Below, one piece after another: positions 1,843 to 10,980 of a DNA stretch of 38,281 nt; the first letter of the stretch is position 1; the number at the start of each line of letters is the position of its first letter. This stretch comes from Alphaproteobacteria bacterium (GTDB taxonomy: Bacteria; Pseudomonadota; Alphaproteobacteria; UBA9655), in NCBI GenBank assembly GCA_027459605.1, contig DAIDHR010000019.1, forward strand, positions 1 through 38,281, in the 5' to 3' direction. Made by a program: the position numbers and the translations under genes. The notes under the pieces were generated by a model that was not told the origin of the DNA, did not search any database, and saw only the letters and a list, made by a program, of their open reading frames with translations.

Positions 1843-3066
1843 TCAAGGAATCCCACTGCACTGTTCTATTTCAAAAAGGGTATCCTTAAAGGCTTTTAGA
1901 CCATAATCTATTTCTTCTTTTGTAATGGTGAGGGGAGGAGCAAAACGGACAACTGTTTCATGAGTGTCTTTTGTGAGAGCGCCTTTGAACCGCATTCTTT
2001 CACACACTTCCCACCCATTAACAAGGTTCTTATTGAAATCAACCCCGATCCATAATCCTTTTCCCCGGACTTCTTTAATAAATGATGAATCTATATTTTG
2101 AAGTTCTTTCATCATATAAGCCCCCAGCTCTTCTGACCTTTGGTCTAGATGCTCTTCTTGGAGTAAGGAAAGGGCTTCTTGAGCAACGGCGCAAGCCAGT
2201 GGATTTCCGCCAAAGGTTGACCCGTGACTTCCAGGGGTCATCAAAGACAGGATATCTTTACGGCTGAGAAAAAGAGAGATGGGTACAAGACCTCCCCCTA
2301 AAGCTTTTGCAAGGATAAGGCCATCAGGCATGATGTTTTCATGTTGAAAGGCAAAAATTCTTCCTGTTCGGCCCAGACCAGACTGAACTTCATCCAGGAT
2401 CAGCAAGACATTGTGTTTTGAGCAAATGTCCCGAACTTCTTTAAGCCACCCTGGGGGAGGAACAATAATTCCTGCTTCTCCTTGAATCGGCTCAACTAAA
2501 AAGGCACAAGTATTGGGCGTTATAGCTTTCTCCAAAGCTTGAGCATTTCCAAAGGGGATAGCCTTAAATCCAGGGGTGAGGGGACCGAAATCCTTTTGGT
2601 AGATGGGCTCCGTTGAAAAACTAATAAGAGTTGTGGTTCGCCCATGAAAATTATTTTCTGCAACGATAATCTCTGCTTGATTTTGAGGAATACCTTTTAC
2701 CTCATAACCCCATCGTCGAGCAACTTTTAAAGCTGTTTCAACAGCTTCAGCGCCTGAATTCATGGGAATGCCCATATCGAATCCGGAAAGAGCGCATGCT
2801 TTTTCCAAAAAAGGAGCTAATTGATCTGTATAAAAAGCACGGGACGTTAAAGCAAGTGTTTGGGCTTGATCAGTGAGAGCTTTGACAAGGCGAGGATGGC
2901 TATGGCCAAAACTAACGGCTGAATAAGCAGTCATCATATCAAGATATTTATTCCCTTCAATATCCCAAACCCAAGAGCCTTTTCCCTCGTGGAGAACGAC
3001 GGGAAGAGGGGTATAGGTGGGAGGAGCAACCATTGCTTCGCGTACGATAAAATCTTGTGTGTTCAT
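1843..3066 (-). CDS. rocD: Ornithine aminotransferase
   Basis: A 407-residue PLP-dependent class III aminotransferase that moves the delta-amino group of ornithine to 2-oxoglutarate, giving glutamate 5-semialdehyde and glutamate. Visible landmarks are the cofactor-contact segment NSGAEAVETALKVARRWG (103-120), the LDEVQSGLGRTG loop (224-235) that carries the Asp binding the pyridine nitrogen, and the Schiff-base lysine K254 in LILAKALGGG. The start codon overlaps the arginase stop by four bases (ATGA), so the two are translationally coupled. Acetylornithine aminotransferase is the nearest alternative, but the length, the motif details and the arginase partner favour ornithine as substrate. Confidence 0.92.
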   Translation of the reverse strand: MNTQDFIVREAMVAPPTYTPLPVVLHEGKGSWVWDIEGNKYLDMMTAYSAVSFGHSHPRLVKALTDQAQTLALTSRAFYTDQLAPFLEKACALSGFDMGIPMNSGAEAVETALKVARRWGYEVKGIPQNQAEIIVAENNFHGRTTTLISFSTEPIYQKDFGPLTPGFKAIPFGNAQALEKAITPNTCAFLVEPIQGEAGIIVPPPGWLKEVRDICSKHNVLLILDEVQSGLGRTGRIFAFQHENIMPDGLILAKALGGGLVPISLFLSRKDILSLMTPGSHGSTFGGNPLACAVAQEALSLLQEEHLDQRSEELGAYMMKELQNIDSSFIKEVRGKGLWIGVDFNKNLVNGWEVCERMRFKGALTKDTHETVVRFAPPLTITKEEIDYGLKAFKDTLFEIEQCSGIP

Positions 3067-3968
3067 ACCGATGTAGCCTCCTGTGCTAATAAATTTAAAA
3101 GCAAGTCTCTGATAAGAAAAAGCGTTTTATTATTTTTGTCCCGGTCAGGATTATACTCAACAATTTCAAGGGCTTTAAAAGTTAAATCCCTTTTAAGGTG
3201 TGAGAAAACTGGAAGGACTTCTCGGGGTTTTAAGCCACCAGGTTCAGGAGAGCCAACTCCAGGAGCTTCACGAGGGTCAAAGGCATCGAGATCAATTGAA
3301 AGGCCATACCCTTTCGTTCCTTGTTTGACATGGGTTAGGGCTTCCTGAAAAACAACTTTAAAGCCTTTTTCCAAAACCTCGTTCATATAATAAACCCGCA
3401 CACCAAGTTGCTTGAGGAGAGCTGCCTCGCCTTCTTCATAGCTTCGAACTCCAATAAGACAGACATGTTCGGGTCTTAAAATAGGGCCTTCTTCAAGGAC
3501 ATTAACCAGAGCAGGGTCTCCAAATCCAAGCAAAGCTGCAAGCGGCATGCCATGGTAAGCTTGAGAGGGGGTTGTTTCCATGGTATGGGCATCTTTGTGG
3601 GCATCTATCCAAATTAATCCAAATTTTTGTTTGGCTTTGAGAGCATTGGCAACTCCAGCCCATGTGCCAGCTGAAACTGACTGGTCTCCTCCAATGATGA
3701 CAGGAAATTCCTTGTTTTTAATAACGCTTTCTACCGAAAAAGCAATGCGACGACAAAGGTCTTCAATAAAGGGAAGGGTTAAAGGTCCAGGGGGAAGGCT
3801 ATGCTCCTGGGCGGATTTCTGTGGGTAAAGCGTTTCTTTCCACAGCCAGGGAAAAGAAAGTGAAGATAGAATCCCTGAACTAAAAAGAAAATCGGGTCCT
3901 TTTTCTGTCTCGCGGATTTGTGCCCCCCATCCGGAAGCAAAACCAATAAATACGACCTGATTTATCAT
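3063..3968 (-). CDS. rocF: Arginase, with Gln in place of a usual metal-ligand His
   Basis: A 301-residue ureohydrolase, expected to hydrolyse L-arginine to ornithine and urea with a di-manganese centre. Seen in sequence: GGDQS at 93-97, IDAHKDAHT with D122, H124 and D126, HGMP at 139-142 (the His that contacts substrate), SIDLDAFDP with D226 and D228, and EIVEYNP with E271. All usual residues are present except the first metal ligand, normally the His of GGDHS, which is Q96 here. The ATG at 3968 is chosen because it begins the conserved beta strand MINQVVFIG; an in-frame TTG 33 codons upstream would add a non-conserved extension. A ribosome-binding site for 3968 is poor (GGGGAG about 18 bases upstream). 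The gene is coupled to rocD. Confidence 0.88.
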   Translation of the reverse strand: MINQVVFIGFASGWGAQIRETEKGPDFLFSSGILSSLSFPWLWKETLYPQKSAQEHSLPPGPLTLPFIEDLCRRIAFSVESVIKNKEFPVIIGGDQSVSAGTWAGVANALKAKQKFGLIWIDAHKDAHTMETTPSQAYHGMPLAALLGFGDPALVNVLEEGPILRPEHVCLIGVRSYEEGEAALLKQLGVRVYYMNEVLEKGFKVVFQEALTHVKQGTKGYGLSIDLDAFDPREAPGVGSPEPGGLKPREVLPVFSHLKRDLTFKALEIVEYNPDRDKNNKTLFLIRDLLLNLLAQEATSV

Positions 3969-4427: not shown

Positions 4428-4433
4428 TCATCC
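4405..4433 (-). terminator. Candidate hairpin at end of the di-iron gene
   Basis: GGTTGAGAGG at 4405-4414 pairs with CCTCTCATCC at 4424-4433 (10 bp with one mismatch) around a 9-base loop. It overlaps the stop codon of the ferritin-like gene at 4428. On the minus strand a T-tract follows only after about 9 bases, so termination would be weak. Confidence 0.3.
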
Positions 4434-5252
4434 TCCTTGCAAAGCCTTTGTATATTCGCGGGCTTTTGTGGTGAGCATATAAGACGCAACAAAAGAGAGA
4501 ATTTTTTGCAAGACTCCCCGAGGATTAATGCCAATCGCTTTGCATAAAAGGGCTATTCCCCTTTCTACGTGGATTTTTTGATAACATTGATAGACAACCC
4601 TTCCATAAACTTTGGTGTAGTAGGGACAGCTGAAAGGACCTTTTTCATTGTTGGCTATATAGTAAGCAAAAGCTAACTCTTCATCTTCATTTTCGAGAAT
4701 TCGACTAACAGCAACTTTAAACCGTTTAAAGATGGTGAGTTTTTCCTTTCCTTGGTAACGCTGAAAATGAGTGTAGAATAATTTATAGTGTCTCAATTCA
4801 TCTGCTGCTATTTTTCCGCAGATATGCTTTAAAAGAGGCTCATCAGTAGCATCTTTGATGGCAGAATAAAAGGACGATGTCCCAATTTCAACCATACAAC
4901 GGGCTAAAAGCTCGGCCCCGCAAGATCCCCGAATGGAATCTTTTGTCATGGTGTCAATGGGGAATCCTTCCCGGTAAGCTTTAAATCGATCTTCAAAATT
5001 GTAGGAGGGATCAGCAAGTTCAACCCACTTGGCAAGAGTTTTCCCATGTTTGATTTCATCCTTTTCCCAACTGTTGATTTCTTTTTGGAAGAGCTCATCG
5101 CCTTCGAAAACATTACATAGATAGGCTCCATAATCAGCCCCATTATGCTCAACAACACTTCCTGCTTTTATGATTTTTAGGATATCAGGATTTACTTTTT
5201 GAGCATCAAATAAAGTCCAATTGATATCTTCAAATTTCCATTTCGGGGTCAT
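4428..5252 (-). CDS. Di-iron ferritin-like protein
   Basis: A 274-residue soluble protein whose helices carry the classic two-half di-iron signature: E35, then E66-x-x-H69 (in DEIKHGK), E122 (VEIGTSS), then E152-x-x-H155 (DELRHYK). This is the ferritin/rubrerythrin/acyl-ACP-desaturase fold, so a carboxylate-bridged di-iron site is expected. The spacing of E122 and the second ExxH suggests an oxygenase- or desaturase-like enzyme rather than an iron-storage cage, but the substrate cannot be read from the sequence. It lies 44 bases downstream of atpC on the same strand and may be read through from the ATP synthase operon. The specific reaction is left open. Confidence 0.75.
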   Translation of the reverse strand: MTPKWKFEDINWTLFDAQKVNPDILKIIKAGSVVEHNGADYGAYLCNVFEGDELFQKEINSWEKDEIKHGKTLAKWVELADPSYNFEDRFKAYREGFPIDTMTKDSIRGSCGAELLARCMVEIGTSSFYSAIKDATDEPLLKHICGKIAADELRHYKLFYTHFQRYQGKEKLTIFKRFKVAVSRILENEDEELAFAYYIANNEKGPFSCPYYTKVYGRVVYQCYQKIHVERGIALLCKAIGINPRGVLQKILSFVASYMLTTKAREYTKALQGG

Positions 5253-10130: not shown

Positions 10131-10291
10131 AGACTATGCCCCATATTCTTAGTTGGTCTTTTTACTTATTTATCATACTGGGAACGGCCTGACAACAGGG
10201 TTAGAAGGAATTTTAATGGGAGAAAGCCCCTTTCTTTTAGCCTTCGAGAAGGAGATGCTTTATGATAATCTCTCTTAAGGAGGAATTAGGT

Positions 10292-10675
10292 ATGGATACT
10301 TCTTATAAGATAGATTTGAGTCGAATTCAAAAGGCTCAAGATGTGTTTGAGCGCTTTCGTAGGGATATGATTAGTGATCGAGATAAAGCAGGGGCTATAC
10401 AAGCTTTTGAGTTTTCCTATGAAGTTTCCTGGAGATTGATGAAAAGGGTTCTTGAATTACAGGGGCTTGACGTGGGCTCTCCTAAGGATACCTTTCGTAA
10501 AGCTGTTCATGAAAAATTAATTGATGATCCTGAAATTTGGTTTGATTTTCAAAAGAAAAGAAATTTAACAACTCATACCTATAACGAAGAAAATGTTGAA
10601 CTTATCATTTCTATTTTTGATATCTTTTCGCAGGAAATGGACAAGCTGATTCAAAGATTAAAGCCCTTTACATGA
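10292..10675 (+). CDS. HEPN-domain toxin (HI0074-like) of a HEPN/MNT pair
   Basis: A 127-residue all-helical protein of the nucleotidyltransferase-substrate-binding (HI0074) branch of HEPN proteins. Residues RNLTTHTY (R90, H95, Y97) form the R-x4-H-x-Y motif of HEPN RNase toxins, in which R and H are catalytic and Tyr is the residue modified by the partner in the studied HepT/MntA system. EFSYEVSWRLMKRVLE (40-55) is the conserved core helix. The ATG at 10292 follows AAGGAGG at 10277-10283, so it is preferred over the ATG at 10262. The stop overlaps the partner start by four bases (ATGA). Role as a toxin is inferred from family and pairing; some HI0074 proteins have not been shown to be toxic. 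Confidence 0.88.
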   Translation: MDTSYKIDLSRIQKAQDVFERFRRDMISDRDKAGAIQAFEFSYEVSWRLMKRVLELQGLDVGSPKDTFRKAVHEKLIDDPEIWFDFQKKRNLTTHTYNEENVELIISIFDIFSQEMDKLIQRLKPFT

Positions 10676-10980
10676 TTTATTTAGAAGAAAGACATCAAAA
10701 AATTATTCAAGATATTTTGAAAAAATATCCTTATACTTTTTATGTATTTGGGTCTCGAACAAAAGGATCTCAAAAGCATTTTTCTGATCTTGATTTATGT
10801 TTTAATGATGCCATTCCTATGAATATCCAAGCTCATATCGACGAAGATTTTGAAGAGTCTGATTTGCCTTTTAAGGTAGATTTGATGGATTGGAATCTGA
10901 TGGCTCCAGAATTCAAAGAAATCATAAAGAATGATCTTGTCCTTCTTCAAAAAGGTCCTCACTTTAGACAGGTTAAATAA
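10672..10980 (+). CDS. mntA: MNT-type minimal nucleotidyltransferase (antitoxin)
   Basis: A 102-residue protein with the minimal nucleotidyltransferase motif GS-x10-D-x-D: G27-S28, then D39-L-D41, and a third acidic residue at D70 in KVDLMDW. In characterised MntA proteins this fold adds AMP to the Tyr of the HEPN partner and so silences it. The full set of metal-binding Asp residues suggests it is active. It overlaps the HEPN gene, stop to start, and ends 6 bases before the priA stop on the other strand. Confidence 0.85.
   Translation: MIYLEERHQKIIQDILKKYPYTFYVFGSRTKGSQKHFSDLDLCFNDAIPMNIQAHIDEDFEESDLPFKVDLMDWNLMAPEFKEIIKNDLVLLQKGPHFRQVK

Follow-up and report, generated by a model that had tools for sequence, protein, structure and literature searches.

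The arginase gene and its metal site

The window (the whole stretch of DNA analyzed, 38,281 nucleotides from an alphaproteobacterial draft assembly of 85 contigs) carries an arginase-family gene and the gene for ornithine aminotransferase side by side on its minus strand. The features discussed here are the following:

1843-3066, minus strand: rocD, ornithine aminotransferase (TIGR01885, 522.3 bits against a cut-off of 378.4)
3063-3968, minus strand: arginase-family (ureohydrolase) gene, 301 amino acids plus stop, with an ATG start at 3968
3585-3611, minus strand: WIDAHKDAH, holding the metal ligands D122, H124 and D126, plus Lys125
3678-3692, minus strand: GGDQS motif, in which Gln96 (codon CAG, 3683-3681) stands at the position of the Mn-A histidine

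The ATG of rocD, which is intact, overlaps the arginase stop codon (ATGA, 3066-3063). A longer arginase frame with a TTG start would reach 4067; we prefer the ATG at 3968, since the alignments of relatives begin around it. A minus-strand gene at 4428-5252, located between the ATP synthase genes and the arginase, encodes a protein whose match to fatty acid desaturase family 2 is only marginal (22.3 bits against a cut-off of 22.7). Elsewhere in the window, on the plus strand (10262-10980), a small gene pair encodes a nucleotidyltransferase substrate-binding protein (PF08780) and a nucleotidyltransferase (PF18765), and by its domains looks like the HEPN-MNT toxin-antitoxin type.

The window protein matches PF00491 at 195.1 bits (cut-off 22, E 2.3e-57), and the match takes in nearly the entire profile, from position 2 to 277 of its 280. 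Its best solved relative by sequence is the arginase of Bacillus caldovelox (1cev, E 4.5e-55), and an AlphaFold2 model, confident save for the extreme C-terminus (mean pLDDT 95.9), has the same enzyme as its top structural match (2cev; Z 42.5, rmsd 2.1, 291 residues aligned), so that an arginase fold is predicted. With this RocF-type arginase the window protein shares a near full-length fold, 37% identity and the motifs DAHxD, SxDxDxxDP and HGMP. The two differ at the Mn-A position, where the Bacillus enzyme has His and the window protein Gln, and at an Asn and an Asp that are replaced by His128 and Glu178 throughout the subgroup of the window protein. The score against the arginase equivalog TIGR01229 (185.4 bits) falls below the cut-off of 227.6, although none of the other four matching NCBIfam models ranks higher. 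The same holds for eight His-bearing relatives and one other Gln-bearing protein (L014), all of which score below the cut-off (149.6-216.9) with this model as their best match.

Read codon by codon on the minus strand from 3692 to 3678, the motif is GGA GGA GAC CAG TCA, that is, G93 G94 D95 Q96 S97, in agreement with the first-pass annotation, which had placed Gln96 at the first manganese-ligand histidine. Conventional arginases are described as having the motifs GGDHS, DAHXD and SXDXDXXDP with six metal-coordinating residues (PMC10028609), and in Escherichia coli agmatinase Mn-A is reported to be bound by the equivalent His126 along with Asp149, Asp153 and Asp230 (PMC8125230). These two sources agree with the metal site as first assigned, which we thus consider right. 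Of this conserved set (two His, four Asp) the window protein has five, the first His being replaced by Gln96; alignment to relatives shows D122, H124, D126, H139, D226, D228 and E271 all kept.

The earlier claim that every other metal and substrate residue is present thus stands for the metal and catalytic residues. It does not extend to the substrate side, where, by comparison with 1cev, His128 takes the place of the classical Asn and Glu178 that of the classical Asp. Both residues are at least 90% conserved in a 51-sequence alignment, and because His-bearing members conserve them too, they are features of the subgroup, unrelated to the Gln change. We take them to correspond to Asn130 and Asp183 of mammalian arginase. 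For human arginase I, Asn130 has been reported to determine specificity (PMC8125230). No assayed member of the subgroup is known to us.

Occurrence of glutamine at the Mn-A position

Of 87 loci gathered for alignment, 81 passed a threshold of at least 140 bits and were kept. From one search, which gave a match in 59 genomes, the best 30 of 59 loci were read; the remaining 29 were weaker (E 4e-37 to 1e-30), and four of them were read through a separate retrieval. Six records that duplicate those of congeners (L031-L035 and L078) are excluded from the 81. In these relatives from Alphaproteobacteria, Rhodocyclales and other groups, column 96 holds His in 79 and Gln in two, the window protein and an arginase of genome G028 (L014). 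Within the genus, 12 of the 14 other genomes have an arginase, 64-71% identical to the window protein, and all 12 have His. Five of the six metal ligands are constant across the 81 proteins; the Mn-A His alone varies, and solely to Gln. The first-pass annotation had proposed an alignment with related Alphaproteobacteria and had allowed that Gln might turn out to be common in proven arginases; Gln is not conserved among them and is uncommon in the relatives examined (2/81). Judged by this alignment, the window protein is a genuine, rare one-residue departure in an otherwise ordinary arginase.

In motif scans the pattern GGDQ....G(T/I/M)W occurs at five places in five of 385 genomes of the class, of which only the window and G028 can be aligned to arginase; in 398 genomes of the phylum it recovered the window and two of the unrelated places of the class scan, and no new case. 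Because the pattern demands the following G-x-W, these counts apply to ureohydrolases that have it. A search of viral contigs for relatives of the window arginase found none. No description of a naturally occurring arginase with Gln at the Mn-A ligand position turned up in the literature searched, which leaves out most subscription journals and with them the primary papers on mutants; a Gln has been placed among the metal ligands of a mammalian agmatinase-like protein, at a different position and by modelling only (PMC7313459).

Other natural departures in the active site were seen among more distant proteins. One (L025, G043, 1501-2244), too weak a match to be among the 81, reads AGNCN, with Cys where the Mn-A His would be; its shuttle His is replaced by Asp and its catalytic Glu by Ala, and it is probably not a classical arginase. 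Among distant relatives, L095 has H139N, and L096 and L100 have TGDH instead of GGDH.

The arginase of G028 belongs to the same subgroup as the window protein, has GGDQS and keeps all the remaining ligands. It comes from another family, however, is 49% identical, encodes its Gln by CAA and has Met at position 125; rocD lies elsewhere in the G028 genome. Two family relatives of G028 (G059 and G060) both have His. On a maximum-likelihood tree of 41 proteins the window arginase falls within its genus clade (support 100/99) and that of G028 next to G059 (91/87), so that Gln needs two changes; on this tree, Gln in the two arginases arose separately. We dropped convergence as a statistical argument, since near-invariant columns are broken 55 times across the 81 proteins, for the most part in distant ones, and an extra hit on column 96 is therefore unsurprising alone. 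What stands without it, in the aligned sequences, is the invariance of the other five metal ligands across all 81.

Possible partner changes were also considered. Residues 18, 201 and 205 are common to both Gln proteins and occur in few others, but were rejected as compensation because each also occurs in some His-bearing proteins. Lys125, between the ligands H124 and D126, is unique among the 81 (Met or Leu in 77); its codon AAA (3594-3596) differs at two bases from the ATG that the compared congeners have there. It too was rejected as compensation for Gln96, since G028 lacks it.

Intactness and the link with rocD

Thirty columns of the alignment are near-invariant, each at least 97% conserved among the 81, and H96Q is the sole departure from them in the window protein, as it is in that of G028. 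Its rate of change is ordinary: on the tree of 41 proteins the end branch of the window arginase measures 0.31, and those of the other congeners that lack a near twin 0.30-0.42. Compared with eight representative congeners, it has a mean identity of 67.2% (62.3-67.8% for the others), with corresponding and likewise ordinary values of 74.7% (72.1-74.7%) for rocD and 81.2% (80.3-82.9%) for upp. By these sequence measures the window arginase is without sign of decay. Differences from seven congeners affect 50-59% of third codon positions and 15-18% of second positions; this excess at third positions, as a sequence pattern, shows long purifying selection, without timing relative to the Gln change. 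No relative closer than the His-bearing congeners shares Gln96. A congeneric arginase from G012 (L011, 1498-2385) has three near-invariant departures, H139Y at the shuttle His, G239S and N273S, with rocD still adjacent, and from its sequence would be a better candidate for decay than the window protein.

Within the genus, rocD and the arginase gene adjoin in all 12 congeners that have arginase, and both are missing from the same two of the 14 (G007, 96% complete and 1.2 Mb; G011, 63% complete), which suggests loss as one unit. The link is looser outside the genus. In G060, G195 and G100 rocD again neighbours the arginase gene and shares its strand; in the stretches read of G015, G016, G028, G059 and G330, and at most Rhodocyclales loci, it was not found beside it. 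We found a single arginase-family gene in the window's own genome, and neither an arginine deiminase nor an ornithine carbamoyltransferase was detected there. Arginase is therefore the sole source of ornithine for RocD among the routes tested. The operon link on which the first-pass annotation had relied is thus strong, and together with the lack of other routes among those tested it argues that the window protein would still make ornithine.

A looser manganese site as the likeliest reading

Sister enzymes offer a precedent for an amide at the Mn-A column. The formiminoglutamase of Trypanosoma cruzi (4mxr, 2a0m) reads GGGND there, and the formimidoylglutamase of Bacillus subtilis (3m1r) GGDNS. 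In the T. cruzi enzyme, according to what Hai and colleagues are said to have found in 2013, Asn114 binds Mn-A, and the N114H variant (4myn) reportedly costs only modest activity; the near-identical sequence of 4myn has GGGHD at this column. These enzymes are of the same superfamily and have an amide in the same His column as the window protein, but the amide is Asn rather than Gln, their substrate is different and their sequences are distant. Since such solved members have Asn there, the rule of six ligands is not absolute for the ureohydrolase superfamily. In E. coli agmatinase, His126 is described as belonging to a low-affinity Mn site, and removal of that Mn as leaving almost half of the activity (PMC8125230). 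The position is equivalent to that of the Mn-A His replaced in the window arginase, although the protein is an agmatinase whose native residue is His, H126N being a variant.

Taking these observations together, we consider it probable (about 0.58) that the window gene encodes a functional arginase feeding the overlapping RocD, in which Gln96 would hold Mn-A weakly or yield its ligand place to water. The sequence, the rarity of Gln96, its origin separate from the G028 case, the intactness of the protein, the gene link and the predicted fold are what the analysis shows, whereas metal binding, activity and substrate we infer. The enzyme would convert arginine to ornithine and urea, the ornithine passing to RocD. 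The side-chain amide oxygen of Gln96 would coordinate Mn-A weakly, or water would fill the ligand place, and Mn-A would consequently be bound less tightly. Mn-A would retain D122, D126 and D226, and Mn-B H124, D122, D226 and D228, with the shuttle His139 and Glu271 also kept. Gln96 thus probably weakens the hold on one of the two manganese ions, and weaker or altered binding of Mn-A is plausible. We see a working enzyme whose Mn-A site is looser as the likeliest reading on three grounds: the Asn precedent, the low-affinity site of agmatinase, and the fact that this is the one ligand of the six that varies.

Some considerations count against a working arginase. Gln is one bond longer than Asn, and Asn is the better mimic of ND1, through which the Mn-A His of arginase is reported to coordinate (PMC7370999). 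According to its title, the 3rla entry finds both thermostability and catalysis diminished when the manganese cluster of arginase is altered. The TIGR01229 score below the cut-off also counts here, though the eight His-bearing relatives share it. Substitutions in the central DXHXD motif of OspR left 14% (D43A), 5% (D43N) and, in a triple mutant including H41Q, about 1% of activity; H41 is the other His and not the Mn-A His, and H41Q was examined solely within the triple mutant (PMC10028609).

The main rival is that the arginase is losing its function, H96Q being an early change, mildly or strongly damaging, in a small-genome lineage to which arginase is dispensable. The joint absence of arginase and rocD from two of the 14 congeners and the three departures in the G012 copy speak for such a course, but the window protein has no second near-invariant departure and no long branch, its frame is open and rocD is intact, and we regard loss as rather unlikely. 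A repurposed metal site, with another metal, a single Mn or another substrate, and possibly with Lys125 as partner change, draws on the uniqueness of Lys125 and its two base changes from ATG. G028 combines Gln96 with Met125, however, so that Lys125 is unnecessary for Gln96, and position 125 corresponds to the X in DAHXD (PMC10028609). Nor did we find a substrate-side residue that sets the window protein apart from its His-bearing congeners, which leaves the other substrate raised by the first-pass annotation without a counterpart in the sequence; with the rocD linkage kept as well, repurposing appears improbable. We give equally little credence to a one-base sequencing or assembly error, CAT or CAC misread as CAG: a single base separates CAG from the CAT of the congeners compared and the genome is a draft, but the remainder of the gene is clean and G028, which belongs to a different family, also carries Gln at this position, encoded by another codon.

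If the preferred reading of a working arginase with a looser Mn-A is followed further, a natural arginase with Gln in the first shell of Mn-A would have been reached separately in two alphaproteobacterial families. The Mn-A His would then be the one metal ligand naturally exchangeable in arginases, perhaps tuning manganese affinity or the choice of metal; we put this forward tentatively, as a possibility less likely than not to hold in full. The practical weight is small, as it concerns one residue of one enzyme from a bacterium that only a draft genome represents here, and a sister enzyme already provides a precedent for an amide. The finding is relevant to the question of how complete the binuclear manganese site of an arginase has to be. 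Should the window protein prove active, setting it beside its His-bearing congeners would allow the part played by the Mn-A ligand to be compared in naturally occurring enzymes, as a complement to laboratory His-to-Asn mutants.
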